This document shows, one piece after another, positions 26,331 through 48,890 of a DNA stretch of 64,000 nt (position 1 is the first letter of the stretch; the number at the start of each line of letters is the position of its first letter). A program made the position numbers and the translations under genes. Below the pieces are notes generated by a model, which was not told where the DNA came from, did not search any database, and saw only the letters and a program-made list of their open reading frames with translations. The DNA is from Echinarachnius parma (lineage: Eukaryota > Echinodermata > Echinoidea > Clypeasteroida > Echinarachniidae), in assembly GCA_037951105.1 (NCBI GenBank), contig JBAMJV010011027.1:1-64000 (forward strand). The letters run 5' to 3'.

Positions 26331-27824
26331 TATCACCACTCAATCAATTAAACAATAAAAACAACAGTAATGAACTTTTACATAATATTTGGCCAATCAA
26401 CGACGTGCAAGCAACTTGTACATTATGAATATTCATATTTCTATTGAAGATGACGTAATATTTACATTGTTATTGTACGTAATTGAATCGGCGTACTTTG
26501 ACCCCTCCGATCCGCGTATCGTGCACACACACGGTTACTAGTATGCCGGTGACTCACTTTTTCACCGGGCCAGGCACGGCTCGAAGGCTCGCCAGTTTAT
26601 GCTAGTGCTACGTTACGTTCATTGCTATTGACGTCGACTCGTGACAGCTGAGCTGAGTCAAGTCAAATATTGAGGGGCAGCTGCTTTTTTAGGTTACCTC
26701 GGCTACTGAATAACGGAGGGTGCATGGGAGAGAGAGGGGACTATTTTAAGCCACCCACGCAATCTGACTTGTACTTGTTTTTCTCTGGACCGAGTTCACT
26801 GGAAATGGCTTTGCCAATCGGATTCTGTCCTCATAAAAAGAGGCGAAATTCGAATGGCGCTGTCACTGGCACTGGCAGACAGTCACCGAGCGGGACACCG
26901 GCTTAATTCACACTCACTCTGCAACTTGTTCAATTCAATTCAAGCAATGAAGAAAAGAGGTGACATGGTCATGTGCACATACACTATGCAGCGAAAGTGT
27001 TAATTGTTACTGCATGATTATCCTGTCGATCCTCGGCCTAGTCTTGTTCTTTATTATAATCTACTTTGGAGTTTTTTGAGCACCTTGTTGACAATCCGTG
27101 TTGTATTCAGCAATAGAAGAGAACCTTGGTTGTTCTGTGATAAAACTTAAAAGCAACTTGATATTAAATCAGATTGAAGTTTTGAACTTTGAATCACTCA
27201 ATCAGGTTGATGCTTATTATTATTTAACTTTGCAACTTTGTCAGAAGAGAGCATCTGATCTATACTATAGCCTGTTACTAGACTACACAAAAAAACATTA
27301 TTGAAAATATATTTTGTGTTGCTGACTGATGACTATTTACTAGTACTATTGACCTTGATAGATCAAATCCTGCCAATTATTGAAAGACATTCACCCAGTT
27401 CCAGTACTCGTCTTTTACAAAGTTATCCAACATTTATGAAGTTCATTTCCGTTGAGCTCAACTTCAAGTTCTGTATTGTAGGAAATAGAAACTGTTGACC
27501 ACGCCTTCCTTGTATCAACGAAAAATGAATGAACAGACGTTTTCGTCGTCATATCCTGGATCTGCACAAAATGAAAACAAAACGAACCAAAATGATCGAC
27601 AGGAGATAGAACACTGTTGCTGCCCAACACGAAGGCGTGCTTTATCTCTAGATTTGCTCGGAAATGAAGTTGGCTGCATCACGGGATTCCGAAACAAGAA
27701 GACTATTCAAATCGTGGCGTTGCGAGGGAACGTTGCTTCACCGACTTCGTCGTCATCCGTGAGATTGGGACGTAGTCCTTGGTGCCCCTTTCATAGAAGA
27801 AACGAGAATGATAATAACGTGACC
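26331..27824 (+). promoter_or_regulatory. Upstream region of the p67phox-like gene
   Basis: Interval between the LINE 5' end and the proposed start codon. No core promoter motif can be asserted. The coding frame is open upstream of the chosen ATG back to 27495 (with an ATG at 27525), so the 5' leader or an N-terminal extension could start here. A GC-richer stretch with direct repeats of ACTGGCACTGGCAG lies near 26865-26880. Confidence 0.35.
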
Positions 27825-30800
27825 ATGGAAGGAATTGAAAAGACGTACAAGGAGGTGATCATGATTTGGAACGAGTCAGCGGAGCACGCAAAGCGCGAAA
27901 ACTGGGACGATGCGTACAACGCGCTCCTCGAGATCATGAATTACTCCGCCAAGATGCGTTTCAATCTGGGTCAAATTGCTTGGGCCCTCCAAAATCCAGG
28001 TTTAGCGAAAGAGGTAAGACCTTTAAAATTAGAAAAGTACATCAAGTCAGCTACTGCTCTTCAGAAATTCTATAGCATGTCTTAACTCTAGTGTATCATT
28101 GTACAGTCCACGCAACCCACATTTACTGAGCAAAAATTGAACTTTAAAATAAATTTTTGAAATGTACCAAACCCATTCTTGTGACTGAAATTGGTTATAA
28201 TTAATTTCTGATTAAATTTATTTCATTATTGCAGATCATGAACTGCTTTTCTTGAATCTTTTGGAATATGTTCTAAGTTATTTTATTTTACATTTTAATT
28301 GACATTGTTAGTATATTCCAGGATGCAGTAAAGCAGAATGAGCCACTTTTATCCCAGAAATAGTGTTCGCTTTGAAATCTCACAGACTCGGACCAGTTGG
28401 CCACGTTTATCCCTCGTGAGAAAATTTGGGAAATCCCCCATCTTGTGTTTTCTTGTAGACTTTGGGATCATAAAACAATTAACCTTAATAGAGTAGGCCT
28501 ACAAAGTACTGCAACAGCAAACTTCACAGGGAGTTGACCCAACCCACTAATTAGCAAAGATAACTGAATTAACAAACTAGGATGTCCCAATTCCCATTGA
28601 GTCTCTTTTATTAACTCTTCCCTGAATGTGCATGGTTATTACCAAGTTGATAGAAAATAACAACAACAAAAACATCTTTGTAAACTGAGCCCTTCAACCT
28701 TTATGCTTATTGTTAGGGCATGACTAAGATTCCATGGCAACCAAAACAAGGTATGTCAGTCACACAGTCACAGACCCTGTCTAGCGGCGGTCTAGCACAA
28801 ATATTGACACTTTGGTTTTCTAGGAAGTACCACCATCAAAAGGACCTTCCCTTGAGTTGTGGCTCTATTGTTTTAGAGCACTGATGACTTTCCTCCCTAA
28901 TGTTTGTTTGCACTAATCCCTATTGATTTGTACACATTAATAGGGATTACTGCAGATTACTGCAGTGATGTGGAAAGTTTATTTTGACTTAAAAAATACC
29001 AATCTGGAAGTCTTTCGGGTACAATTCTCTTCAAAGCCAATTCTCTTTGCTCATTTTAATTTTATTTCTAAAGGTGATATTTTCATTTTATTTAGTCAGA
29101 AAATGGTTCTCTGTAGCTCAAAACATTTTAGCTCCATCTAGTCATTCCAGACTGTAAATGTTGGTTCCAAATGTTGTATTAAATGCAATAAATCTGTATT
29201 CTGACATCTTAATTTGGAAATTTGTAATTAATCTAGTCAATAAGTTTATGCAATGTTAGTTAAATATGACAAATTCATAGTTTATAATATCACAGACAGG
29301 TTGAATAGTTCTGAAAATTTCTTTGTCAATCGAACAGTAAACAAGTTCATGTACAATGCAGTGCCATTTTGTTCAATAGTTGAGTATTGGTCATTTGAAC
29401 TTAACTTTAGTTTACCCAAAACCTGCATTTGATCATTACGGAACAAACTAATATTTATATCTCCACCATGCTCGAAAGGTATACACAATTACAAACGACT
29501 AGGTAAAAACCTGGTTATCATTTTTTTTAAAGGTGCCATAACAACTCAAGAGGGCGCTCTCTAAAAAATCATCGGTTTTAGCCATTTTTTCATACAAAAT
29601 TTTGCATTTAATGTTTTGTTAAAATAATGATTCAATAGAGATATCATCAAAAACTATTTAAAAACCTAGTTAGATCTTTTTCAAAGAAGTCTATAATTAT
29701 TATAAGCATTTTTAAAATTTTTGTAAAAAGTAAAAATGTCCCCTGGCCAGTAGACTTATAAATTAATAAAATATCTTGATATCAAATTTTTCAACTATGA
29801 GAGCATTTGAAAGGGAATGATTCTCATTTTACATGTTTTATTCAAGGAACTTTCAAATGGAATTAAAACCAACCAATTTAGTGTCAAGGGGCATTTCGGG
29901 AAGTACCAATACTCAAGTGTACCTTTAACTGCCAGGGATTGCTTCCCTTCCACAATTAAATAGAACTCCCCATTGTCCTTCCAGATCCTGGTACTTTAAT
30001 TTAGAGACAATTCCTATTTTGAGGAGGGTATATGCGTGTTATAACTATAATTATAACAGGCAGAAATTGAAGGAAAAAAGAACCAAAAGGGGTGGGGGGA
30101 AAGAGGAAGTTTGTCTAGGCTTCATACACGTGTAAACTCTTGAACCCTGCACAATAGCACTTAATTCAAGCGTGAGTAATGATCAAATGCAAAGAAAAGG
30201 TCTACCAACATCAGCATTGGACTTTGGTTAGCGTAATAATGTAATGATGTATATATTGCATGTAGGTGGCTTTAATATGATAATTCATGATATAATTTTC
30301 ATAACATTTTTTTCGTAGATTTCTGAGCAAATTGTATTTGGGTGCAATATTGGCATTGGCAGCCATGCATCATTGAATCCAGGAATTCTTTTATTGTTGT
30401 ATTCAAGACAAATGTATCTACATGTATGTGGACTCCAGCCCGAGTATTTCCGGAACTACATTGTAGTCCCGAATGGTCTATTTGCAGGGATCCATTTTCG
30501 GAATTCCTCATTAATGTTTCTTTCATTTTTTGTTTGTATTCGTTTTGGAAATTACTGGTTTAATTATATTGACATTGTATAATTATCAATTCATCCTCAT
30601 GATATCCTTGACCTCATTGTGAGTCAATGATCAATCAATTGGCTTACTTATTATGGCTTCTTTGAAATTAAATACTGGGAAATGCATAAATCATCATGAA
30701 TAATCTTTTTACAATTTACATAAAGTGCCAGGAGAAACATTTTTTGTTTTAAATATCTAGAGTATTCATAGTATTCCTCATTTAATTTGCAATTGAGTCA

Positions 30801-33800
30801 GTCAATTGGCTTTTATACGGTTTCGTGGAAATGAAATACTAGGATTTTGGGAAGTGAGAGAGAGGGAAGGTGTGATTAAAAAAGAAAATATATTTAAAGA
30901 GACAGCAATTAGGATAATCTTAAATCTGTATCATGGACTTCAGTCCTTGGCAGAAGTAACAAGTTTGTTATCTAAAGTATAGAGTATTCATATTCCTTGT
31001 TTAATTTGCGTTTGAGTCAGTGAATTGGATTAGTTATTTGTAAAGTTTCTTGGAAAATGAAATATTAGGAATTTGGGAAGTGAGAGAGAGGGAAGGTGTG
31101 ATTAAAACAAATATATGAAGAGATAGCAATTAGGATAATCTATATCATGGACTTCAGTCCTTGGCAGAAGTAACAATTTTGTCATCTAAAGTATAGAGTA
31201 TTCATATCCTTGTTTAATTTGCATTTGAGTTAGTTATTTGTAAAGTTTCTTGGAAAATGAAATATTAGGAATTTGGGAAGCGAGAGAGGGGGAGGTGTGA
31301 ATGATTGATGGGTTCGACTACTAACAGGAATCCACTGATTAGCTCAATTGGCTCGGCAAATGTGGAAGTTTGGAACCGAGGTCTACGTGCAGGGAAGGGG
31401 GTGTCCGGGATTCCGTAGTCATCTTAAAATAGCAATTACTTCATTCAGAAATATGCATGCACTCGTCATATTATTATTCACCCTTTTAACTAAGAATAAA
31501 TTGTATTTTATACAAGTTTATACTCAGATCTGCATTCACTTGTTAAAGAATCAAGATTGATATCTATAATCTAGCCATTATATAATCCCCCTTCATGAAA
31601 TATTAATTTCAAAGTTTAAAAACAGTCTCAGTTTTAGACAATATAATTTACAGACATGTGCGCAAAATATACATTTTCTAAAATCTATTTTCACATTTAT
31701 GTTTGATTGTTTTGTTTATACTCTGCATAATCTTGTACATAAAGGTATAATTTAGGGAAAATCAAAGTTTAGATTGAGATAACATTGTATTTCTTAGGAC
31801 TTAGTGTATACATAATACATACATGTGAGAATCTTCAAGTATGTAATAATCTTCAAGATTGAAGGACACAGGTCTACCCCGAAGAAGAAGAAGAAGAGAG
31901 TGTCTCCCTAGAAAAAAACAACAACAGGAAAAGGGGATTTATTACTCACTACATTGGAAGGTCCTACTCCCTCGTTGGATATCCCTCTTAATTGACTTGT
32001 TTCAAGTTTGGGTCAGGGGGGAGTCAGAGACCATCAGACTTATGCACCTTGGAGAGTAAATACATTACGTTATATATTAGTAGATCTATTTCAAACTTTC
32101 TCTCACTCGGCCCTGCAAGGCCAGAGCCATTAAGTTGGAATGGTTGATTTCATGCACTGAGCCCTTTGCGGCTTTGCCTATAGGGCTGCTGTCCTGGGGC
32201 CACTAATCATTAGTCACAAATGACAAATGTATTCATGAATGTAAAATGTTGCTTGCCCTAGAGGCTATGGGGCCAACAACAAAAAACAGAATCTTACTCA
32301 TGTTTTCCTTCTTTCTTTTTTTTTTCGGGCGAAAACAAAATTTGATTTATAAAGTCGCTGATTTACTTTGTCAAATGTGCTACATACATGTACACTAGTA
32401 CCAGGAAAAGAAATATTTCAAGCCCAGCAAAGTGTTTCTTTTTTATTAGAAAACTGCTCATGAATGTATTATTTTATTTAAAATAAATTATTGAACACAT
32501 TCAACACAGTTTTGTACTGCAACAATTGTAGTTCTGGAAGGGAAATGAGTTTCTCTTTAAATTGATTCAATTTCCTTCTGTATTGTTCGCCTTCCTTTGT
32601 TTTTATCACTTTCTCTTTCAAATAAATTTGTCATTAATTTCTGGTGTACATAATTGGCATACATTTATCACATTTATTGAGGAAAGAAACATGCAATTTT
32701 ATTATTCTTAAAAAAAAAACTTTGCAAGAAGGCCTTTTCTATTTTTAACGTGCCAACAAGGAATGTTTTGTTGCAATCAAATGAAAGTGGTTGTAAAAAT
32801 AACTTTGCAGTGAAACTTTTTTTCTAGTCTTACTATAAAGTCTAGTGGAATTTCCTGGAGTGTGTAAAATGAAACTCATTTTAGTTTCTAAGTATGGACT
32901 AGTACTGGTTGTTCACACAAATTAATACCATATAAATTAGGTTATAAATTGTGGTTGAGATTTTTCTGTTCACCTTGATTTCTATACATGTAATCATCAT
33001 TTAATGTAGATTTATGTTGTATTTTACAATGGTATCTCCAGATTTGGGTTTTAAGTTTTAAATGTAGTAATCATTGAAAATGTATTTGGCAGACTAAAAT
33101 AAAATGCAAATTGTGCAAAAATAATTCAAAATATTTTTCTTTTCTATAATTTTGAAAATATTTATAAACAAAATCTACATGGAGATCTCACTAATTGGAA
33201 AGATTTTGTTTTTCTTCTTCAATTTGCAGAATCGTTTAATTTATGAATGCAGCAATGATTGAAAATTAATGAATTTTTCTACTGATCTTTTTTTCTTTCT
33301 TTCACAATTAACAGAATTTCTTGGTGGCCATTGAAAAGGACCCACACATGGCCCTGGCCCACTTTCAGCTGGGCATGGTCAACTATCGGCTGCACCGATA
33401 CAACGAGTCCCGGGGCAGCTACGACAAGGCCAAGACGTGTCTCCGGGGTAACAAGTTCATCGACTACCGCCAGCTCGGTTTCGTGCACAAGCTCTATGAA
33501 TGCGAGGTACGAGAAGTAACACAAATTTAATTGTTAATTACACCCTTCCATTGCTTCAACTTAATAATAAGGGATTGGTTTATTTGGCATTGTGATCAAT
33601 TTAGAAATGATTTTGTGCAAATTCATTCAAGCAATTATGTACTTAGTCAATGCTCGAAATTAGCATAGGCCCGATGGCCCGGGGCCACCAAAAATTGCTG
33701 TCGGGCCAGTAAAAAACTTTTTTTTTTTTTTTTTTTTTTTTTAAAGATACCCTGTAGTCATGTTTAGTCCTGTCTAGGGCATGACAAGAGCTTGCTTTTA

Positions 33801-36800
33801 AATGTAGCATTCAGCAACTTATACCCTTTTCTCACATACAAAATATTGGACTAATTGGTTAGTTAAAAATTGGCAAGTTAACTGAGCAAGTAACACTGCT
33901 GCTAATGAATATTCATACATTCTTGAGCAGCAGTACTCATTTTCTAACCAGTTGTTATAAAAAAAGTTTCATATTAAAAATCGTTGTTAGTAATTTCAGT
34001 TATTTTGCGTATTTTGCATATCTTATGAGCATCATGAATATTCATATATGCTGCTCATGAATATTCATATGTATTATATTACTACTATATATCACAATTT
34101 AAAAATATGTCTTTTGTCTAAGGTGTTCAGACAACACTGCACAGAATTTTGAGGTCAAATTTAATTTTCTCTTTTTCTACCATTTTTGTTTTGTCACCTA
34201 GACCCTGACTATGTATGACTGGTGAAATTGTCACTCGTGTGAATATGCAATCGCTGTGATTTTTTGATGAAGACAATGAATAAAAAGACATGACACACAC
34301 ACTGAATCCTAATTCATGTTTATTTAATTCATCTTACAATGAAACAAAGGGGAATGAAAAATAAAAAGTATTGCCTAGTACCCTGAAACTATTCATATGG
34401 TTATTGTATTAATTTTACTTTTTTTTTTCCTTTTTTTTTTCGGGCCAGTAGTTTTTGGTTTCGGGCCACCAAATTTGGAAAAATACTAATTTTACTGGCC
34501 CGACCGGGCCACCAGCAAAAAAAGTTAATTTCAGGCATAAAAGTCTTAGTTTTTATCCTCACTTTGATTTCACTTTCAATTCTACACATTTTGAACAAAG
34601 AATTATTTTGTATTATTCTATTGAAACAATGTTTTCCCTTTGAGCATGAAAACTTAAAAAAATGTTTCAGAACTTTTTTAAATGGAAGATTAATCATTAA
34701 AACTTGAGAAAAGAGATCAATGTAAGTAGATCAATAGATTTATCTTAAATTTTCTTTTCTTAAAAGGTTTTGTACAACTTGGCGTTGACATACGCTACCA
34801 TGATGAACAATTCAGAGTATGGGCTTGAATTGCTGGAGGAAGCCAGCAAAGTTGCGATAGAATCGCGCCACGCTCCTATGATTGAGAAGGCACAAAAGCA
34901 GCTAATGGTGAGTACTAAATTGAATTGAATTTATTTATTTACCAATTTAACAAAATCATATGGTATAAAATGTACAATGTTTACAAATTTCTCATCAATT
35001 GGTAAAAAGGACTAGAAAATAGCATATTATGATGCTAGTCAGATTAGCCCTTAAACAAGAGATCATTTGAACAACCAAAATTAATCAAAATATACGAGTC
35101 AATCAATCAAGACTATATATATATATCTAGATACAATTACAGTAACGCAGACTCTTTCAAACATACATTTTTTGTAGAACATGAATTAAATGTGTATTAG
35201 ATATTTCTTATATTACAATGAACAAAATCTATATCGTGACATTGTAATTTTTGGACAATTTGGGGGATTTCCTCAAAAGAGGTAGTTTTGATTGTGATTG
35301 TATTGTGTTTTGATGGAATTTCGCTCTGAATGAAGATAAATCTTGGAAATCAGAAGAATACATACTGTGCCTTTTTTTATGTCTACAAATGAGTTTGTTT
35401 GGAATGTGATTGTATTGTGTTTTGATGCTTTTCGTTTAGAATGAAGATAAACTTGATAATTAAAATAATGCATGCATGACCTTTTATGTCAATTTTGTGA
35501 CATGCTGTTCCTCTTTTACTTTAGGCACACAATATGTAATATAGGTCCATTCTCATTTAATTGACACACACGTTTGTAAGCAAAATATGAAATGCCTTAA
35601 ATTGTTAGCAAAATGTGCAATGCATTTTACAGTACTATTAAACACAGTTAAACGCATACCTCATTATGCACACCATCGTTTAACGATCCGCATGTTTTCT
35701 CTGCAAATCCTACTTATATGTCCTGGGGGGTGTTTCACAAAGATCCTAAGTTGAACTTAACTCTAAGTTGGACTTAAAATTTATGGAAAGCCTTTTGTAG
35801 CCTTGGAATAAAATATATTAAAGAGCAAAAATATAAGTATTTTAGACTTTTCATAAATGTTACATTAAAAACATGAAATCTCCTTGGAAATAGAAAATAT
35901 AAATGATTTGAAATTTGAATCAACATTTTATGCCTTTTGAAAGAAATTTTACAAAACTGTTTCAAAGAAATTAATGGCTTTCCATAGTTTCTATGTCCAA
36001 CTTAGGATCTTTGTGAAACACCCCCCTGAAGTTATCCTAACAACTGATTGCATGGGTGGGCATGGATAATAGTTGTTCAGCGACCATTCACTGACAGAAA
36101 TACATTTATTTGATTAACCCTAGATAAATCCTTTTGTGATTCAGACTGCGGAGTAAATTGCATTTCAGCACAGTATGTGGTGTTGTATGCGTTTGTGTGT
36201 GTGTGTGTGAAGTTGTAGCCTTTTACAAAGAATGGCAATTGAAGCACAAATAAAATGTCGAACAGAAAAACGGAAACTAGTAGCCCCGATGGATGTTGCT
36301 CAATTGTATAGAAGCCCTTGAAAGCGAAAGAAAACCATGTATTAAGTACTGTCTAGACTTTAAAGGGATAGTTGAGTTCTGGTATTAAGGAGAGTACAGT
36401 TTTGGTGAAACTGAATTTTAGTAACCAAAACCTGCATCATTACATTACAAACTAATAGTTATAACTAGAAAGGAACACAAAATTACAAATGACGTGTTAT
36501 CATTCAAAAAGAGCCGTTAAAACGTAAGAGGGCGCTCTCTAAACACTCATCGGTTTCAACCATTTTGAATAAAATATTGTGCATGTGATGCTTTGTTGAA
36601 ATAGTGATTAGATAGAGAAATAACCAACAACTATTTAAATACCTATTTTGTAACTTTTGGAAAAGAGGAAGCATTTTTTTGAATTTTTAACGGCTGGTTC
36701 AAAATTCTCTAATAAACCTGGGGCCCCAGGTTTATTACAAATTGTTATATTTATGGATATTTCGGCCGTCTCTGAACCGATTTTGATCAAACAAAGATGA

Positions 36801-39800
36801 TTTTATTATTTAAATATTATGCTCTTTCAAATTTTACACTCAGTTTTTCATTACCTCACAAAAAAATAAGTAGTCTAGCGCCCTCTCTACCAAAACTCAA
36901 CTATCCCTTTAACTGTGTCTGAAAAGGTGAAGGTTTCTTTTTCACTAGTGTTTTGTAATTATGCAATTTAAACTTCATTTATTCTCCAAAGAAATAATTG
37001 ATTCCCAAGTCGTATTTACAATGTAGGTGCAAAGACAAAATTTGCAGGGGTATACATACATGTATAAAAAACATCTGAGAACAAAATGAACACTTATTGA
37101 ACTATTTCGGGGAAGGAGTGTTCATGTGACTGTATTTGGTAATATGCATATTAAACTTCATTGTACAAAGAAAATATTTCAAAATCTTCTTCAGATGCGA
37201 ATCAACATTGGTGAAATTTACATCTAAAAAACACCCTAAAAGTTCAATTAATGATTATATATTCCCTCTGTTTTGGGGGCAGAGAAATGTGTTGTTTGAG
37301 CTGTATATATCCTACCACACAATCGGCTAAAAGATTCTGCCCACAAAACAGGAAAGAGCTTATATCACCAGTTGCTTATTATGAAGAAAAAGTATGCCTT
37401 TTAAAATTTTGTGTTCAATAAAGAAAATGGTAAGGCATTTGTTTCCCTTATGCACAGTTTTTGTTTTCTTTTTGTATTTTGCAGAGAATGAGTTGTATGA
37501 GCCGTACGTCCTACCAGGCAATCAGCTCTTCCGACCACCACAGAGTAAAGAGCTAATATCACTAGTTGCTTATAAAGAAAAATGGAAATTAATTTGTGCC
37601 CTTATTTACAGTTATGTTCATCTTTTTGTATTTTGCAGAGAAATGAGTTGTATGAGCGGAACGTCCTACCAGGCAATCAGCTCTTCCATCCATCAAAGAG
37701 TAAAGAGCTAAAATCACCAGTACAATAACGAAAAACTAATTTGTTTCCCTTATTTACAGTTATTTTCTTTCTTTTTTAAAAATTTTGCAGAGGAATGAGT
37801 TGTATGAGCCGTACGTCCTACCAGGCAATCAGCTCTTCCGCCCACCAAAGAGTAAAGTGGACAATCTCAAGAGAGTTGACTATCTGGGGAAGCACAAGGT
37901 GGTCAGCGAGCTGCCCGAATCAAGAAACAACAACAACAAAGATGTAAGTACCCATTGCCAGAAATTAACTCTCTTTTTTTTTTTATAGTGGCCCAAATTT
38001 GGGCGAGTCAAAATTTGGTTTATTACATTTTGCTGGCCCTGGAACAGAATTGAGTGGCCCCATGCAAACAAAGAAAACCATTAAAACAAGGTTATGAATT
38101 TGGTTGCCCAGTTAATGGGCAAGTAACATTTGACATGATCCTTAATACAATGTAAATGTAAATGGCCTGAAGCTTATTTCTGGTGGCCCCGGGCCAGTGG
38201 GCCTGTGCTAATAATATTGAGCCCTGGAGTATCTAAATATGTTTGAATTTACATGTTTAACCTGGAATTCACCATGAATGATACATGTTTGTGTCGATTT
38301 TACCAACTATTCAAGTAAAAAACTTCAGCATCATGATTGTTTTTTTATTTTTTATTTTTTGACTTCATGTTTTAACCAGAGAGTCACTGTAAATGATTCA
38401 GGTTTGTGGCAATTTGCCAATAATTCAAGTAAAAGTTCTATAAAAAAAAAGCATTGTGATGTTTTTTGTTTTGTTTTATGTTTGGTAAATTGATACTAGT
38501 ATTGGCTACTGTTTGGTTCTCCCTGTATTTGATCATTACACCATCTGGTTAGAACTATTTTTACCTTTCTCTGGTTCGGAGCACAGTTCCTACCGAACCG
38601 TCTTAGGCTATTTCCATTGTGCTCTGTAAGCTGAAGTTCATGGGAAAGTTTCAAGGTCTAGCTAAACAAATTCTGTATTGTGGAAGTAGAAGCTGTTTTA
38701 TTGTGAAAATAGAAACCATTATTTTTTTAATGATTGTATAAATACTTTCACATGATATTTTAGAACTTGTTTAATGGTGAGTGCACGCGGTGGCACAAAT
38801 TAACCCTCAGCATGTGAGCGTTTGTGTTTTTGATTTAATTGAAACGAATCAAAACTGTCTTGCTGGTTAACTTACTCATGATAGAAATTAAACCTGAGGC
38901 TCAGCATGCACAGATGCTTACAAGTAGTTTTTATTGTGGTTTTAATTATAGCTAATGGAAACTGACTCGACCACAAAACAAAAAGGAAGGATACAAACAT
39001 TTTATGCCGACTATGGTAGAATAAACCTGATCAGCAGTCGGCGGACACATGTTAAATACAATTTTTTAAAATTTTTATTGAATCTGATTATGGACCTACA
39101 TGTAACTAATACTCTGCCCATCAGTAGCGTAGCCTGGTTGAAGAAATTGGGAGGGCACGCACGCACATTTTATTTATTTATTTTTTGGGGGGGGGGGGGG
39201 GGGCACTCCTTATGTATTTCTTCATTTTTCACAGATGTTCACCTTAAGTTTGTTATTGCTTTTTTCAAATCTTGGGGAAGGGGGGGGGGGGGGGGGGGGG
39301 GGCACACGCCCCAAGTGACCAGCGTAGCTATATAAATACATGGGGGGCTGAGGGCGACTTTGCCCCCCATTTTTCGAAATAGCCCCCTAAAATCAGTAGG
39401 TAGCCCCTGAAATTACCATCTATAGGGTATTATGTGAAATATGTTGCAATATCCATCAGATTGAAAAAGTAGCCCCCTAAAATGAAAAATCAATTCTTTC
39501 CTTGATGCCACTGTTCATGCCTGTGATCGGATGGAAACTTATACAAATATGTATTAACCCGAACCGCAAAAAGGCGGGAAAAAGTTTGACAGAAAGAGAG
39601 AGAGAGAACAAAATGATAAAACAGACGTCAAGCATTAGAAGTCTTGACCTTGTGTTCCCGTTCAATTGCATTAATATTTGTGGTTTATATAATAACCCTG
39701 ATTTCCAGTATGTGGTGAATGGTACAGGTAGGTCCCATTCATGATTCATACAAAGCGTTGGCGGTAATTCTCTTTTAAAACCTGCACGTAGGCGAGACGA

Positions 39801-42800
39801 CTGGTGGGTTCACACCAGAACATTGTTTAATAGTTTATAATCACTATTCGTATTATTCTTGGTGCTAAAATCTTCTTCTTTTGATTGATCACACATTTTA
39901 AAGGTTTATATGAATTGCTTGATGTATTTATAATCTGTATTTTGTGTGTGCGCTTTCAATTCAATTCAAGGTATTTTTTATTCAACTATTTGTAGCCAAA
40001 AGGCGAAATTACAAGTGAATTTACAAGGTAAAACACATTTAAAATGACATACAAATTAAAAGGAAATATACAGAATATTATACCAGTACAAGACATAAAT
40101 AATGATGCAAGTGATTATTATATAATAGTGGCAGAATTTAATTAAATATTGCCTATCAAAATATGAGGAATAACAAAAAAGAAAAAAAGTATCAATATAA
40201 TATCAACTTGGTGTTAATCAACTATTAAATACGTAGAATAAAAATTAAAAGCTTTTCATAAAGTAACTTAAGTTATGTTCAATGATAAAAAGATGTAATA
40301 GTTAGGTAATGGTTATAAACTAATTATAAGAGCGTTTAAAGCATTTAAGGTTTCCTATTAAAATTAATAATTAATAATAATATACCAACAAATGCAAACA
40401 TTGATTATAATGACTAATCGAGTAAGAATTACAAGCATAGCTTTTAGTGGTAATTGTACCCTAACCTCAATTTCAGTGAAACAGTGAAACACCCCACTGA
40501 TCTATGTGTGAACAGCCCTTATTTGTTCTGAGTGGTCATGCCTGGCACGGATGTTCAATTTTTAATAAATTTGTAATAAATTAAATGCTACTTTGTGTTG
40601 ATGAATGTTTTCATTCAGCATATTTGGTACTTAAAGGAACTGTGATGAGCTTTATGAATAGCAGTGTGATTTAACAAAATATTTTGATGATTGTGTTTGA
40701 GCATTTCTTTGCGTCTGGTCAATGTCATACCTGATACAGATGACTGGTATGACTTTAATTCCATAAATTGATTAAAACTTATTTGGGTTGATTAATGTCT
40801 TCATTTGGGCATATTAGGCATTTAAAGGAAATGTCATAAAACGTGTGCATGAGCTTTTTGAATAGGAACACATTTTCGAGTTTGCTAGCTGCAAACATTT
40901 AATTGTGTTGGTCTTTGGGGCTGGTCATGCCTGGTACGGATGCCTGGTACGGATGACCAGTTTGACTTTAATTCCATTAATCAATTCAATCTTTATTTGG
41001 GTTGATAAATGTTTTCACTTTGCTTATTTGGTATTGTAAGAAAACTACTCACTGTCTGTACCTTGAGTTTGCTCAATGCAAATATTCAATTGTGTTTTTC
41101 TCTGGGGCCGGTCATGCCTGGTACGAATGACCAGTTTGACTTTTGTTCCTTTATTAATTCAATCTTCATTTGGGTTGATAAATGTTTTCATTTGACATAC
41201 AATGCATTCCGCAAATGATAGGATGTGTACTCTTGACTATTGTAGGTAAAACATAAATTGTTGAATCAATTTTGATTAAGGTCCAGTTGGCAGATGATGA
41301 CTTGATTAATTTCAGGGTACTACATGTACATTATGTAAATGCACCTGTAATTTTAATAGAGGTCATTGTAACTTTTGAATAACTGTATTTTGGGTGTTGG
41401 CATGAATTGCTGTTTGGTTCTTGTCGTGGTTTGAAACCAGTAAGCCTAGTAAGGCCTATGTACATGTAATTAACCCATGTGTCAAAGTACAAAACAAACA
41501 TACCGTTTACTATTTGAAACAAAAGGCTAGACTTTAAAAAAAGGCAGAATTGATCTTTAGCTCATCAGCAAATTTAGTTGACATTCTGTCATTATAAATG
41601 ACCTGTGCTACCAAACCGTTAATTTGAGTGTATACAGTTTGTAGTGCTATGGTAAACAGAGTGTGCAAATAAGGCTTCTGATAACATCTTGCTCCATTCC
41701 CCTTTAGCCCTTTAGCCCTTTAGCCCTCTAGCCCTCTAGCCACCCTAGCCAGCACCTCCTATGACATATATAGGTGTTTTCATATACACACATGTATGTA
41801 AATATATAATTGATGAAGATGATAAGCAAATTGAATTAACCCGTTGCTTACAGGAACCAGGTGAGCTACAGGTACAAAGTCTATGGAGGTTTTAGAATCT
41901 CGTAGTGAACGGGTTAAATGCAATCGGCGTTACATAGATTTAAGGAATGCAGTTCTACCATTGATGATGGTGTTTTAAGGTTGCATCTTCCACCAAAAAA
42001 AAAGAAGAAAGGAATGCCTCTGATTAAACATGATGACATGAACTATCCACAAGAAGGCAAACAACTATTGTTACATGGCCTAGGAAATGAATATTGGATA
42101 CAAATATTTTGTGTCTAATTCACTTGTTTTTAATTGTCCATGTCTAAACGCTACCTCCTCATTCACATAATGTTATTTTAAACAATGATTTAATACAAGA
42201 CCACAAACAGCCTGGGAATGCCCATGACGGAAGCTGCTTCCGCTCAATCAACGATGACTTCTCCTCAGACATGGACAGCCTCTCGCTAACCCCCAACTCT
42301 TCATCCTCTACCTCTTCCATGGTTACCAAGATGCCCCATTAAGATCTTGAAAGCAATCTTTAAACAATTCTCAATCATTTTGTATCCATCCTTGCAGGAC
42401 TTCAAACTGCCCGGTAAACCCGGCGACCGAAACACCTTCCGTCCAATCAACGATGATTTCTCCTCGGACGAAGACAGTCTCTCTCCAAACTCCAGCTCCC
42501 CGACGCCCTCTATGGTCGCCAAGATGACCCACAAGGACACGTTGGCGATCTGGCATGAGGGCGTGAAGGCGTTTGACAAAGGGGACCTCTCCGGTGCTCT
42601 GGACCAGCTGAACGGGATCGTTGATCCTTCGGCCAAGATCCTCTACAACATCGGTATCCTGCAGAAGGCACTGGGACAGCTGGACGATGCACTTTCGGTA
42701 TGTTGAATTTGTTTTGATTAAATCAAGCCTTAGTTTCATTTTCAGTCCCATTTGTTTTCTCTATTTATATTTGTATTTGATAAGCTTTCTTGAATTTTCC

Positions 42801-45800
42801 TGAGGACGCATTTCTCTTTCTGAAGTAAATGTACAGAGCTACTAAATCTGTAACTTTTAATGTTTTTTTTCTTCTTCAGTCTATATACGCAGATTAGGCC
42901 CTACTCTTAGACCTAATTTTTCTGGAAAAGAAAATTCATAATAGCTTCAATATCTGTTTAACCCTATGGCTTTCCTTCTTACAGGGGGTATTGGAAAGGT
43001 AACCATACCTTGCTGTTGGTCACAGTGCAAAGAAGCAAGGGCGGAATTCAGCAAAACTAAAATTTGAATTTGAATATAAAGATATTTATCCCTTCTGCAA
43101 TAGCTCTAATATGTTGCATTCCTGGTCATTTGTACTTACAGACATTTAAAGGAGTGGTGGCCAGCGATCCATACCTAGCCATCGGTCACTTCCAGCTGGG
43201 GGTTGTCTACGGGCAGCTTCAGCAGTGCAACGAAGCGTGGGAGGCATTCGGCAAAACCCAGGAGGTACTGCGCGGAAACAAGATGATCGACTACAAGCAG
43301 CTGGGGCTACAGTACAAGCTGCACAAGTGTGAGGTACGTAATAATGCCAGGGTAGGAAATACTCTGTGGCTGAGCCGCTGAGGGCAATTTTGCCCCTTAA
43401 TTTTTCAAAATACCCCCCTGAAATCAGTAGGTAGCCCCTGAAATTACCATCTATAGGGTATTATGTGAAATTTTGTGTGATATCCATCAGATTGAAAAAC
43501 TAGCCCCCAAATTAAAAATGTATTCCTTCCCTGAATAATGCTAATGGTGATGATGATAATGGGTATAGTTTATGTAGTACCTAGTATGAAACAGTGATTG
43601 TATGCGGTTTATTTTAGTGGGGGGGGGGGGGGATGATCTCTTCATTCACCTTCCGTGAGCAAAAGAAACTTCAGCAACTCTATGCCAGTGATTGATGCTG
43701 AAGATGATGATGATTATAATCGTGGCGCTGGCGAATGGTGATGGCGATGATGACGATGAGAATAATATAATTCTCACAAAGGCTGTTACCTCCTATCTGG
43801 TACCCACTTATACAATATACACCAGAGTAGAGAGCAGCAATGTGAAGTAAAATATATATATTTTGTTTACTCTTCATTCCAAAGCAAGCAGAAAACTAAC
43901 CCGCTCGTTTCCCTCCCTTTTTGTTCTCCTTAGGTTTTGCACAACGAGGCATGGACGCACAATGAGCAGAATAGTCGTGACTGGACACAGAAGCTCTTGG
44001 ATGAAGCCCTGGCTTGCAAGGCTGATGCCAGACACGACAAGATTGATGAATCTAAGAGGAATTTCTCAGTAAGTTAAATAATTTTCTTCTTCTTGTTTGA
44101 GAATTGATATCTTCTCTTTACAATGATGTTGCATTTGTGGTTGGTTATCTAATGGATTGTTTCCTTTGAATACAAGTATTTGATGAAAGAAAATATACTC
44201 TATGATCTCATCAGTAAATCTTACTATAATTTCTCAATAAGTTTGTCAGTGAAGCTTGCATCTTTTTTGGTTTCATTCAGGGAAAAAATTAATATTTTTA
44301 TTTCGGGGGCTACTTTTATAATTTCTATTTTTTTTTAATTTCAGGGGCTACTATTTAGCTCTAATGCTGTATTAGTGATCATCTAATTGGCATTCGATCA
44401 CGATCTTGGGGTTACTTTTTTTTTTAGGGGGCTCTTTTTGGCATTTCGGGGGCAAATTCGCCCACCGCCCCCGTGTATTTTTTCCCTGGTTTCATTACAA
44501 AAAGTAAATTTGTTTGACCTTTACACAGCGGAATAAGTAGATACATATGACTGTGTGTGTGTGTGTATACAATCAAATTAATATACCATCATCCTACTGA
44601 ACCCTAAATACTTTATTAAAATGCATTGATACTTATATTATAGTCTCATGATTTACATGTGCGTTTGTTCTTTGTTACCACAGAACGGGTATTCATTCCA
44701 GCTGTTTGAGCCCTCAAAGCCGCTCCTCTTCCGACCGCCAAAGTCCAAGATTGACAACCTGGAACGGAAGGACTACCTCGGAAAGGCCAAGATTGTAGCG
44801 AAGCTACCCAGCCATAGAGGGGTAAGATGTCTGTTTTTCTTTTAATATTAAGCTTTTCCAGAAAAGGATTTGCTATCATTTTAAGAAGCTATAAAATATC
44901 TGTGACAATTTGTTGAACAAAATTGGGCAAAAAATAAAATAGCGATACTTTTTGATAGTTTGATCAGTTGGGCTGAAATGACTAATAATTTAATCAATGT
45001 AATGGATAATGTCTCAATCACATCTTCAGCTATGTTTAAAAGCTTGAAAATAAACTGTATTTTAACCCGATCCCTACTAGATTTGGTAATACTCGGAGAG
45101 TAAGAACATAGCCCACCATGTTCCTGTAGGAAATGGTTTAATTAAATACAATTTAAAATTGTAACCAGAGCATATACCACAATGAACAGAACAACTGATT
45201 ATTAAGTTTTTTTTTCCATGTTGACATTGCAGGGTTCTTCCACTCCACCCCCAACCTCCAACACCAGAACCAGCCTGGGCATCTCAGTACTACCCCCTCG
45301 CAGCAAGACCCCTACACCTGCCTCCTCGGGACAGAAAGCTCCACCACCGTCCAAGCCTCCTCCAGTCAACGGAACCAGTTCCAGTCCAGGTCCTGCGCTG
45401 CCCGCTAGACCAGCTCCTCTGCAGACCAGCATATCTTCATTAGCTGCCTGGAAGACGCCAACTGTGACGGTAGATGCAGCAGGACCAGCTCTGCCGCGAA
45501 GGCCCCCACCATCAAAGTCCCCTAGTTTTGATCTTGCTCCACCGGGCCATGATGCCCCTGATGGCTCATCGTCACCGACTCCAGGCGGGCGTCTAAGTCC
45601 AGTTCCCACAAGACCCCTTCCTCAGAGGATTGACGGCCAGCGTTCTCCTCCGCCCAACAGGCCACTGCCATCTCTGAACCGTACTAGTCCCATCCCAACC
45701 AGGCCAGTGCCATCTCCCAACCGTACTAGTCCCATCCCAACCAGGCCAGTCCCACAGAAACCCATTCCCTCTGGTCCTGGAGACCCTTACTCTGGACGCA

Positions 45801-48440
45801 AATTGAGCGTAGATGTTCCTCCTGGCAGGTCACTCCCCTCGCCAAATCGCACTAGTCCAATTCCAGACAGGCCCCTACCACAAAGGCCTAGAGACAATGC
45901 AGATGCACCTCCAGCTAGACAATTACCCTCACCCAATCGCTTCAGCCCCTTACCAGATCGTTCAAGTCCTTTACCAGATAGGCCGCTACCTGCCCCTCCA
46001 GGTAAAGCCATGAGCTCTGACTTACCAGATAGGGCTCTGCCCCAGCCTCCCAAGTCTAGAGTGTCTGACCTACCCAATAGACCTCTACCAGGTTTCCCAA
46101 CTTCTGATTCAGGTGATCTGGCTCAAAGACCCGTGCCTCCTAGACCTGCAGCTGGGGTAAGGGATCTTCCAGGCAAGGCTTTTCCACCACCACTAGTCAC
46201 AAGAGAAAGTGACGTCCCATCAAGATCGTTACCACCTGCACCCAAAACGGATTCCAGGAATGATTCCAATGACTCTCCTCCAGATTTACCCAGCAGACCT
46301 CCCCCGATGAAGTCAAAGATCAGTTCCATGTCATCAGGTGTTGGGAAAGAAGAGACGGATTCGCCAAATGATTTGCCATCCAGACCCATCCCGCCTGTCC
46401 CTAGAACAAGCAGTAGCAGTCCTACTTTCCTGTCAACCCCTGCATCACCACCAGCTCCTCCTTCTCCCAAGCTTCCTGCCAGGCCTTTCTCAGTGCCAGC
46501 ATCCAGGACTGCCTCCAACTCAAGTTCATCGTCGTCGACAGCTTCTGAAGATCTTCCCTTCAGGCCAGTTCCGGCTCTGCCAGCATCCGCCACAAACGAC
46601 GAACCACAACTGCCTCCCAGACCAACACCCGCTGCGCCTAAGCTGCCAGAGAGGCCTTCCCTATCAGGATCTGCAAGTCCATCGCTACCGGACAAGCCTC
46701 TGCCAAGGCCTCCTGGTGGTGTCAACAACGAAAGGAGAGCTTCCAGTCCAGGGCTTCCTGACCTACCACCTCCTCCTCCTCCTCCGTCCATCAGCAAGGC
46801 ACGATCTCCCGTTGTCCCACGCAGGCAGATCCCCAGCCAGGAAGTCTCTGGTAGTGGTGGGGACAAGAAGGCTCCGGGACACAAGGCCAAGCTGGTGAAG
46901 ATCATCACTGACAGCCCGCCGGTCCTGAGGAAAGCAGCTGCTGTGACTGTTGTCCAGAAGGAGGTTAGTATTTTTGGTGGAGTTGCTTCATTGTTGTATG
47001 TTAAAAATTTAAAAAAACCTAACTTGGTGTGGAGATTGGATGTATGATATGGTTTTAGCACCCCTTTTAAAGATATCTCAACAATATCTTGTAGATGAAT
47101 AGTGTAGATTTAATTTCTCTTACAGAATTTAGGATTTGTAGGCCTATATTTAAACAGTCCTCTTTATTTAGAAAAGGGAATACCTGTCAGATAAAACATT
47201 AAAACTTGTATTGAAAAACTTGATTATTCTCAGAGTAAGCTACATATTAACTTTTCTGTTCAGTGAAGTAGTCTTGCGAGATGGTTGTAGATGGTTGTAA
47301 ATTTGCACTTTTATTTTTTTCGATCCTCATCAATTGTTTTTTGTTTTTGTTTTTAATTCAGAAGAGTCCAGCAATCCCTACAAGACCCGGGAATGGTGTC
47401 TCCAACGGCAAGCCAACTCTGCCAGCCAAAAACAAGCCAGCACCAGCCGGAAATAAGCCCCTCCCTGCAGGTAACAAGCCAACCCCTGTTGCCAACAAGC
47501 CAGCACCTGCCGCCAGCAAACCACCACCGATTCATGCTTTCAAGCCCCAGCCCAAGCCGAACGGAGGGGCGGGAAAGAAGAGAACTGCGCTGGTGATTGC
47601 AGCTCATGAAGCCAGTGGTGACGGAGAAGTATCTGTTTCTGAGGGAGATCTGATCTCGATAACTGGGGAAGGTGAGTAATAATAATATATTCTGTTTATA
47701 TAGCGCCTAATATGTACAATGTTTTCCATCATGGCAGTTAAATAATGATACAGTGAAACTTCATTATACTGAGCACCTTGGCCCATTGAATTTACCTTGT
47801 TATATCAGATATCTTGTTGTATCAGGTCTTCAAAACAATTGATTAAACAGAACCTGGACCTGTTAAATTACCTCCCTATATCAGGTACCTCATAACAGAG
47901 CTCGTTATAAAGAGGTTCAACTGTAATGATAATAGGTTAGATTTATATAGCGCCTAATATACAATATCATCTCTGAGCGCTTTACCCTAGTTATAATGTA
48001 CAATGCCATTCCAACATCTTTGAAAATAAGATCTTTCTAATGTTTGAATCCTGAGACAAGCTTTAGATGGTCCTCCAAATTATTAGAATAAACCTCACTT
48101 TTGGTGGGTAAGAGTACCAGCTAGGGTTTTGTTATATCACAGTTCTTCATAATAAGTTTACAGTGTACTGTTTGACATCATACTTTGGAATTTTCATTCG
48201 AAAAAGAGAGAATGATTCAATTGTACTGTGGACTTTTGAGGTCTGTTGATGAGATTTCATAATGCCAATTTATTTCTTAATTTGTTGACATTTGTAATAT
48301 ATTCTAATTGTTTTTTAATTCATTTTGTTCTCACAGATGCTGGCTGGCTGGAGGTCGAGGTCAAAGGTGAGAAGGGTCGTCTTCCGAAAACGTGCGTCAA
48401 GAGCTTCAGCAAGCCTGACATCCAGGTCAACTTTCAGTGA
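27825..48440 (+). CDS. NCF2: p67phox/NOXA-like NADPH oxidase activator with duplicated TPR module
   Basis: Eleven exons: 27825-28013, 33315-33506, 34767-34907, 37791-37943, 42398-42697, 43142-43333, 43934-44068, 44684-44821, 45233-46963, 47362-47671, 48337-48440. All junctions are GT/AG; they are phase 0 except the last (phase 1). The product is 1,194 residues, more than twice human p67phox (526). Order: TPR/activation module 1 (1-225), Ser-rich linker and module 2 (226-480), proline-rich exon (481-1057), SH3 (about 1130-1187). The family binds Rac-GTP and switches on NOX2-type oxidases in the cytosol and at membranes. The start at 27825 has a strong ACCATGG context and aligns with the human N-terminus; an upstream in-frame ATG exists at 27525. 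No PB1 or central SH3 is seen. Whether one transcript spans both modules is inferred from splice phases. The symbol marks the closest family, not proven orthology. Confidence 0.88.
29377..29735. mobile_element. Fragment of the TTAA-type repeat family
   Basis: Shares AAAACCTGCATTTGATCATTACG, ACTCAAGAGGGCGCTCTCTAA and CATCGGTTTTAGCCATTTT with the copies at 36364-36908 and 6523-8264. The ends are missing. Confidence 0.65.
30750..31300. repeat. About 220-bp intronic tandem repeat, 2.5 copies
   Basis: Units starting near 30750, 30973 and 31188 share GAGTATTCATA, GGGAAGTGAGAGAGAGGGAA and TCATGGACTTCAGTCCTTGG. The third is cut off after the GAGAGAGG block. Confidence 0.85.
33656..34530. mobile_element. 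GGGCCACC-bounded intronic repeat
   Basis: Intron 2. GGCCCGGGGCCACCAAAAATT at the left is echoed at the right by GGGCCACCAAATTTGG and CTGGCCCGACCGGGCCACCAG. The element carries a poly-T tract after the left end. A related shorter element occurs at 37966-38226. Confidence 0.5.
35726..36030. mobile_element. 300-bp MITE in intron 3
   Basis: The left end GGGGTGTTTCACAAAGATCC is mirrored by GGATCTTTGTGAAACACCCC at the right. Inverted pairing continues through TAAGTTG / CAACTTA and GGAAAGCC / GGCTTTCC. No ORF. Confidence 0.8.
36364..36908. mobile_element. 545-bp TTAA-type MITE in intron 3
   Basis: Ends AGGGATAGTTGAGTTCTGGTA and CCAAAACTCAACTATCCCT are inverted. TTAA flanks each side (36360-36363, 36909-36912). 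It contains paired AGGGCGCTCT / AGCGCCCTCT subterminal motifs. This is the compact, best-bounded member of the family also seen at 6.5-8.3 kb and 29.4 kb. Confidence 0.85.
37275..37735 (+). pseudogene. Three decayed copies of p67phox-like exon 4
   Basis: Three partial repeats precede the genuine exon 4 (37791). One near 37279 is badly decayed. One at 37485-37555 has an intact TTTTGCAG acceptor and 20 recognisable codons but lacks one base near its start. One at 37639-37728 has an intact acceptor, is in frame and ends in TAA. The copies keep the acceptor-proximal half of the exon and lack the activation-region half and the donor. Between copies the intronic flank (CCCTTATTTACAGTTAT) is also repeated, so the duplicated unit was intron plus exon start. 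Confidence 0.85.
37966..38226. repeat. GGCCC-bounded intronic repeat
   Basis: Intron 4. GTGGCCCAAATTTGGGC and GGCCCCGGGCCAGTGGGCC frame the copy, related to 33656-34530. Confidence 0.45.
39122..39335. mobile_element. Poly-G element in intron 4
   Basis: Starts CAGTAGCGTAGCCTGG and ends CAGCGTAGCTATA, with two G runs of more than 15. Related in style to the elements at 13437 and 52434. Confidence 0.55.
39336..39510. repeat. TAGCCCCC interspersed repeat, copy 1
   Basis: Shares ATCAGTAGGTAGCCCCTGAA, ACCATCTATAGGGTATTATG and ATCCATCAGATTGAAAAA with 43376-43530, in the same orientation. A more diverged reverse copy lies near 44275-44490. Confidence 0.75.
40535..41260. repeat. About 190-bp tandem repeat, four degenerate units
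   Basis: Each unit contains GGTCATGCCTGG(C/T)ACGGATG, GACTTTAATTCCAT and TTGGGTTGAT(A/T)AATGTTTTCA. Units start near 40535, 40725, 40920 and 41105. Intronic, no coding potential. Confidence 0.8.
41836..41917. mobile_element. 80-bp hairpin MITE, copy 2
   Basis: TTAACCCGTTGCTTACAGG at the left and GTAGTGAACGGGTTAA at the right pair as a hairpin, with TACAAAGTCTATGGA between. Same family as 8407, 48977 and 54176. Confidence 0.75.
42199..42342 (+). pseudogene. Decayed copy of p67phox-like exon 5 start
   Basis: Aligned in frame to the first 48 codons of exon 5 (42398): it keeps SINDDFSSD and MDSLS and then reaches TAA at 42340-42342. The phase-0 AG|GAC acceptor is lost (CAAGAC instead), so it is unlikely to be spliced normally. 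It sits 199 bp upstream of the genuine exon. Confidence 0.85.
42398..44821 (+). other. TPR/activation module 2 (exons 5-8)
   Basis: Residues 226-480, from exons of 100, 64, 45 and 46 codons, all phase 0. Exon 5 starts with a Ser/Asp-rich linker (DDFSSDEDSLSP) followed by TPR1 (LAIWHEGVKAFDKGDLSGAL). Exon 6 carries LRGNKMIDY with R369, N371 and D375 in the Rac-contact register. Exon 7 begins VLHNEAWTH. Exon 8 carries LFRPPKSK and then DYLGKAKIV near 464. Exon boundaries fall at the same alignment positions as exons 1-4, showing an internal duplication. An ATG in exon 5 (MVAKMTHK) could be a relic start. Confidence 0.88.
43376..43530. repeat. TAGCCCCC interspersed repeat, copy 2
   Basis: Second copy of 39336-39510, located just after exon 6. 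A TGATGATGATAAT-rich stretch and a poly-G run follow. Confidence 0.75.
45233..46963 (+). other. Giant proline-rich exon 9
   Basis: A single 577-codon exon (residues 481-1057), low complexity and rich in Pro, Ser and Arg. The core motif is LPxRPLP/RPxPxxP, repeated dozens of times (for example NRTSPIPTRPVP twice in direct succession). These are classical SH3-ligand patterns, so the region is likely a scaffold for several SH3 partners. It replaces the SH3-PB1 segment expected here in vertebrate p67phox. Opposite-strand and +1 frames over this exon are long because of its composition and are not genes. Confidence 0.85.
47362..48440 (+). other. Exons 10-11: second proline tract and C-terminal SH3 domain
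   Basis: Exon 10 (47362-47671) encodes PAGNKP/PANKP-type repeats and then the start of an SH3 fold (RTALVIAAHEASGDGEVSVSEG). Exon 11 (48337-48440) completes it with GWLEVEVKGEKGRLPKTCV and ends at TGA. The acidic SxxEGD turn, the GW Trp and the LP proline are kept. The ALYDY tyrosines are replaced (ALVIA) and the last tyrosine position is Cys, so peptide binding may be altered. The domain corresponds to the C-terminal SH3 of p67phox. Confidence 0.82.
47751..47923. mobile_element. TA-flanked MITE, copy 1 (CAGTGAAACTTC)
   Basis: In intron 10. The left end CAGTGAAACTTCATTATA and right end TTATAAAGAGGTTCAACTG are inverted, with TA on each side. Ends and TA duplication resemble pogo/Tigger-type Tc1-mariner MITEs. 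Further copies are at 51569-51753 and 51914-52093. Confidence 0.75.
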
Positions 48441-48449
48441 ACGGTGATC

Positions 48450-48890
48450 ATGTCCCTGCTAGTGTTTCCCTTCCGAGGCAGCAGATATGCGAAGGGTTGT
48501 GACTTGTCTTCCGACAACATGCGCCAAGAACCTGGCATCATCAATTTTCAATGATGATCTCGTCCTCGACAGTGATTCCCTTTCGAGAATATGGGCCAAA
48601 CAATTCTGCAACCCGCCACCCCCAGGTCAACTTTCAATGAATAATGATCATGTCCCTGCTAATGATTCCCTCCCGAGGCAGCAGATATGAGATGGGTCGT
48701 CTTCCGAGAACATGCGACAAGAACCTTGCATCATCAATTTTCAGTGATGATTCCTTTTCAAGAATAAGCGCCAACAAATTCTGCAACCCCGCCACCCCCA
48801 GGTAAACTTTCATTGAATGATGATCGTGTTCCTGCTAATGATTCCCTCCCGAGGCAGCATGGGTTGTCTTTCGAGAACATGGGTCAGGAA
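48450..48890. repeat. Degenerate tandem copies of the terminal exon and its flank
   Basis: The block around the stop (GTCTTCCGA, CAAGA, CCAGGTCAACTTTCA(G/A)TGA, ATGATCATGTCCCTGCTA, TTCCCT, CGAGGCAGCAGATATG) recurs at about 48495, 48620, 48690 and 48795 with drift. No intact frame is kept, so these are non-coding echoes of the last exon in the 3' UTR. Confidence 0.8.

Follow-up and report, generated by a model that had tools for sequence, protein, structure and literature searches.

A Nox activator of the p67phox type that carried its TPR domain and activation region twice in one polypeptide could offer Rac two binding sites, and the locus described here raises the question of whether one gene of the sand dollar Echinarachnius parma encodes such a protein and, if so, whether the arrangement is new. 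The locus lies in a window of 64,000 nucleotides (contig JBAMJV010011027.1, positions 1 to 64,000), which is the whole stretch of DNA that was analysed. The p67phox-like gene occupies 27825-48440 on the + strand, and its 11 exons splice to a frame of 1194 codons with one terminal stop, with an acceptor AG at exons 2-11 and a donor GT at exons 1-10 (Table 1). The order along the protein is TPR plus activation region, a linker, a second TPR plus activation region, a proline-rich stretch, and a C-terminal SH3 domain, where module 1 is formed by residues 1-225 (exons 1-4) and module 2 by residues 226-480 (exons 5-8). An earlier note on this DNA had paired the exons of the two modules by size (63/100, 64/64, 47/45, and 51/46 codons), had placed exons 1-8 all in phase 0, and had joined the end of exon 4 (GAT, then the donor GTAAGT, at 37943) in frame to the start of exon 5 (GAC, after the acceptor AG, at 42398). 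The sizes are exact, the phases hold in the spliced frame, and the sequence at both ends is as claimed, within the 1194-codon frame. We propose, with a probability of about 0.82, that the locus specifies one NOXA1/NCF2-type Nox activator, the ortholog of a protein of the sea urchin S. purpuratus, with two tandem modules, a proline-rich region, and an SH3 domain.

Table 1. Features of the p67phox-like gene and of the partial exon copies within its introns, in window coordinates.
Feature	Position	Strand	Support
Exon 1, module 1: first ATG and TPR, 63 codons	27825..28013	+	PDB match; residues identical on second contig (C1236)
Exon 2, module 1: TPR with LRGN Rac-contact motif, 64 codons	33315..33506	+	PDB match, residue alignment
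Exon 3, module 1: TPR, 47 codons	34767..34907	+	PDB match
Exon 4 copies: two, partial, upstream of the exon, beginning at 37487 and 37642	37487..37705	+	
Exon 4, module 1: activation region DYLGKHKVV, 51 codons, phase-0 donor	37791..37943	+	
Decayed partial copy of exon 5 start	42199..42342	+	On both contigs
Exon 5, opening 38 codons: linker peptide before internal ATG (MVAKM)	42398..42511	+	Coding-type evolution
Exon 5, remainder, module 2: TPR	42512..42697	+	PDB match
Exon 6, module 2: TPR with LRGN motif	43142..43333	+	PDB match, residue alignment
Exon 7, module 2: TPR	43934..44068	+	PDB match
Exon 8, module 2: activation-like region DYLGKAKIV, Ile at Val-204 position	44684..44821	+	
Exon 9: proline-rich region, 577 codons, without Pfam domain	45233..46963	+	
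Exon 10: end of proline-rich region and first part of SH3	47362..47671	+	Pfam, solved SH3 matches
Exon 11: end of SH3 and stop codon	48337..48440	+	Pfam, solved SH3 matches

Both modules resemble human p67phox to an extent that rules out chance, since the matches to PDB 1hh8 reach E 1.8e-37 for module 1 and 4.2e-37 for module 2. Aligned with residues 5-208 of the human protein, each is 37% identical (76/204 positions in module 1 and 75/201 in module 2), and the two share 39% identity with each other (84/214 aligned positions), which makes the module duplication an old one. The Pfam model TPR_2 scores over its curated cut-off in module 1 (33.9 bits), and no Pfam TPR model does so in module 2, the best being TPR_1 at 22.7 against 27.8. 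Each module starts with an ATG close to the human start position, and alignment to human p67phox places equivalents of Asp-67, Arg-102, Asn-104, and Asp-108 in both. A TPR domain with Asp-67 and Arg-102, a trait of the p67phox/NOXA1 Nox activators, is therefore found twice; Asn-104, Asp-108, and other positions beyond these two we take to be Rac contacts as well, as in the structure of the Rac complex. Human Ser-37 is replaced by Ala in both modules, and the modules differ from each other at positions 69 (His in module 1, Tyr in module 2), 106 (Phe and Met in modules 1 and 2, against Leu in human), 196 (Val and Lys, respectively), and 204, where Val, another trait of these activators, is found in module 1 only and module 2 has Ile. 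The likeness to human p67phox (NCF2; PDB 1hh8, 1e96, 1wm5, and 8wej) thus takes in the TPR fold as judged by sequence, the Rac-contact residues, the DYLGK region, and a C-terminal SH3. The human protein differs in having one module, a central SH3, and a PB1 domain, according to PMC2121648, whereas two modules are present here and Pfam finds neither of the other domains.

Whether the tandem order is real, and whether both modules are maintained, can be judged from a second contig, C1236, which was found by searching the assembly (1.2 billion bases) and is colinear with the window across the gene and its flanks. Colinearity and the level of divergence point to C1236 as the other haplotype rather than a recent segmental duplicate. 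All 11 exons are present on it, with order and frame kept and GT/AG intact. A second contig for the region could raise the suspicion that two alleles or paralogues were wrongly joined in tandem during assembly, but the same exons in the same order on C1236 make such a join very unlikely, and modules that are just 39% identical are far past allelic divergence, so that we give this explanation almost no weight. A third p67phox-like locus was likewise rejected: genome searches by module gave 14 matches in one case, all on the contig of the window or C1236, and 17 in the other, all on these same two contigs except for two weak matches (E 2.4 and 5.7).

Between the two contigs, nonsynonymous sites differ at 0 of 537 in module 1, 1 of 596 in module 2, and 5 of 1566 in the tail, against 3 of 138, 11 of 169, and 10 of 576 synonymous sites, respectively; the codon split across exons 10/11 is excluded from the test. 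Within the tail, exon 11 is without sign of constraint, with 3 differences in 81 nonsynonymous sites and 4 in 21 synonymous ones. Outside the exons, the gene has 17,031 positions; 3,366 without an aligned partner were dropped, and of the remaining 13,665 the contigs differ at 375. In an unconstrained module 1, about 15 nonsynonymous differences are expected, and the Poisson chance of seeing none is near 4e-7, a value that is approximate because divergence is uneven along the locus. Since none is seen where about 15 are expected, module 1 is, by this comparison of two contigs, under selection as a protein, and the idea that it is a pseudogene is ruled out by the absence of nonsynonymous changes against the 375/13,665 non-exon differences. 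The two complete TPR/activation modules that the earlier note had described are thus upheld, as both match human p67phox and both are constrained between the contigs.

As to what connects the modules, the opening of exon 5 is informative, as the exon begins 38 codons ahead of its first ATG. Upstream of it lies a decayed partial copy of the same stretch, which has CAA in place of the CAG acceptor, runs into a stop after MVTKMPH, and is 4 bases longer on C1236. Over 43 codons through MVAKM, with two extra codons of the copy omitted, the exon 5 start and the copy differ in the frame of the gene with Ks 1.09 and Ka 0.23, and in the other two frames of the exon 5 start Ks/Ka is 0.38/0.35 and 0.20/0.42. 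When sets of 36 changes were simulated 2000 times under neutrality, in a simple model in which half were transitions, the synonymous count never came up to the observed one. The linker itself is identical on the window and C1236 (0 differences in 114 bases against about 3 expected, which is weak alone). Judged by this pattern of substitution, the stretch ahead of the module 2 ATG is one that evolved as coding sequence and was translated during its history, and translation would therefore begin in an upstream exon. That exon fits exon 4, the phase-0 donor of which is identical on both contigs, though another exon is possible. We infer a splice junction between exons 4 and 5 (37943 to 42398), and both modules are most likely present in one protein.

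The coding history of the exon 5 start bears directly on a different arrangement, two neighbouring genes, in which module 1 would be a truncated gene, or a pseudogene, with a normal p67phox gene of one module behind it. Such a pair would be in keeping with the ATG that each module has close to the human start position, with the 4,454-base intron between the modules and its 14 AATAAA/ATTAAA motifs, and with the stop that is reached 14 codons into a read-through of exon 4. The strong constraint on module 1, the exon 4 donor that is intact on both contigs, and an exon 5 start that evolved as coding all argue against it, and tblastn searches of the window with the whole spliced protein, taken to E 0.1, did not find the tail (exons 9-11) a second time. 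We consider two separate genes very improbable. The same search bears on the claim of the earlier note that, decayed copies aside, no terminal exon of module 1 is to be seen before exon 5: a hidden terminal exon was rejected in so far as it would resemble the known tail, and that part of the claim stands, but an unrelated terminal exon may exist. It should be noted that a stretch of the inter-module intron at 39448-39882 is 99.8% identical between the contigs, against a difference of several percent over much of the intron. This quiet stretch (about 39450-39900) was discarded as evidence of an exon because other introns show similar ones.

A second alternative keeps a single locus but has its modules used one at a time, either by splicing of exon 4 to exon 9 or from an internal promoter before exon 5, to give single-module isoforms that share the proline-rich/SH3 tail. 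Indeed, with the junctions of exons 1-9 in phase 0, splicing of exon 4 to exon 9 would keep the frame and skip module 2; module 2 carries an ATG of its own close to the human start position, which makes an internal promoter possible; and the tblastn search with the whole spliced protein did not turn up another tail in the window for module 1. An isoform started at that ATG would, however, have no need of coding history ahead of it, and the published sea urchin protein is described with both modules (PMC2121648). We therefore hold exclusive use of single modules to be unlikely, while single-module isoforms and the fused form can coexist.

Exon 4 has been copied in part on its upstream side. In the window there are two tandem partial copies, with an acceptor-like site on each, and C1236 has one upstream copy that is more diverged (81% over 98 aligned columns).

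The two-module protein proposed here continues into a tail in which residues 481-1128 are 26% proline with 53 PxxP motifs, and a Pfam search of exon 9 alone, taken to E 1, gave no match. The C-terminal SH3, a further trait of the p67phox/NOXA1 activators, scores over the Pfam cut-offs with SH3_9 (32.8 bits) and SH3_2 (24.8 bits), and SH3_1 is under its cut-off of 22.9 at 21.6 bits. Among solved structures, CIN85-type chains match this SH3 best and p47phox next, and no p67phox chain is among the 34 matches. A PB1 domain and a central SH3, which mark vertebrate p67phox, were not found, in that exon 9 has no Pfam family (E up to 1) and exons 10-11 only SH3 families. A 79-base repeat is present in three spaced copies at 48422-48876, the later copies being 87% and 70% alike to the first, which starts within the last coding exon and spans the stop codon.

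The arrangement is not without precedent. The earlier note had credited the known p67phox and NOXA1 proteins with one module each, but a p67phox-like protein of S. purpuratus with two TPR and activation domain (AD) sets was in print in 2007 (Kawahara & Lambeth, PMC2121648). In that paper, both TPR domains of the protein are described as keeping two key Rac residues; in the second AD-like region, isoleucine takes the place of Val-204 and residue 196 is basic, which it is not in the other p67phox-like ADs; and the protein, from a single-copy gene, has a C-terminal SH3 and proline-rich regions and is without PB1. The E. parma protein shares this layout of two modules, proline-rich region, and C-terminal SH3 without PB1, as judged from the published description, and it shares the diagnostic residues, with Lys at 196 and Ile at 204 in module 2 and no basic residue at 196 in module 1. 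No difference from the S. purpuratus protein emerges from that description. The new architecture announced by the earlier note thus gives way to a layout already known and not new in kind, and the gene is, on these sequence features, probably the ortholog of the S. purpuratus two-module protein. The mitochondrial contig of the assembly agrees with an echinoderm source: in COX1, the codons AAA, ATA, and AGA stand at positions of Asn, Ile, and Ser, respectively, and the order of rRNA and COX1 genes resembles the arrangement in sea urchins or sea cucumbers. In the same text, vertebrate NOXA1 and the Ciona p67phox-like protein are also described with TPR and activation region, PB1 is present in vertebrate NOXA1 and absent from the Ciona protein, and a second module is mentioned for S. 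purpuratus only (PMC2121648). No further paper on the two-module form was found among the matches listed in our literature searches, which covered titles and abstract openings. The S. purpuratus protein was identified through BLASTP searches for predicted proteins (PMC2121648), and its two-module form may for this reason itself be a gene model. With selection acting on both modules and a coding history in the stretch that joins them, the two E. parma contigs lend genomic support to the view that the two-module p67phox of sea urchin is a genuine gene structure, and they raise the fair question of why two Rac-binding activator modules are kept in one protein.

Based on analogy with p67phox, we put forward the following hypothetical mechanism. 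Rac-GTP would bind each TPR module, and the activation region would promote electron transfer in a Nox2-type oxidase. Rac binding by both modules is plausible from the sequence, with the equivalents of Asp-67 and Arg-102 kept in each. The principal part in activating this electron transfer would fall to module 1, which has Val at 204. Module 2, in which the Rac contacts are kept but position 204 is Ile, may act as a weaker additional activator or else provide a further Rac/membrane anchor. We infer that module 1 is the likelier activator from the residue differences at position 204, at His-69, which it keeps, and at Leu-106 (Phe against Met); module 2 would then be a weaker activator or a further site of Rac contact. 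Docking to a p47phox-like organiser would be the role of the proline-rich region and SH3, as was proposed for the sea urchin (PMC2121648). It may also be that the modules have been kept since an old duplication for different jobs, either one for each Nox2-type oxidase or to bridge two Rac-loaded oxidases, with alternative splicing of the phase-0 exons setting their use. The distance between the two modules is about that of either from human p67phox, and S. purpuratus has two Nox2-type oxidases, Nox2A and Nox2B; we nevertheless regard such a division of labour as a doubtful, speculative extension of the mechanism.

Two observations concern other sequences. A 105-codon frame on the minus strand (L039, G000:C214:97124-97318) matches the p22phox family over the cut-off (PF05038, E 4.5e-10) and includes KPPENPPPRPP, which resembles the proline-rich motif of p22phox. 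According to Kawahara & Lambeth (2007, PMC2121648), p22phox was not found in S. purpuratus. Upstream of the p67phox-like gene, a 1230-codon open frame on the minus strand (22647-26339) is a LINE-type retrotransposon, with Pfam matches to the reverse transcriptase domain RVT_1 (E 2.8e-32) and the endonuclease domain Exo_endo_phos (1.8e-7).
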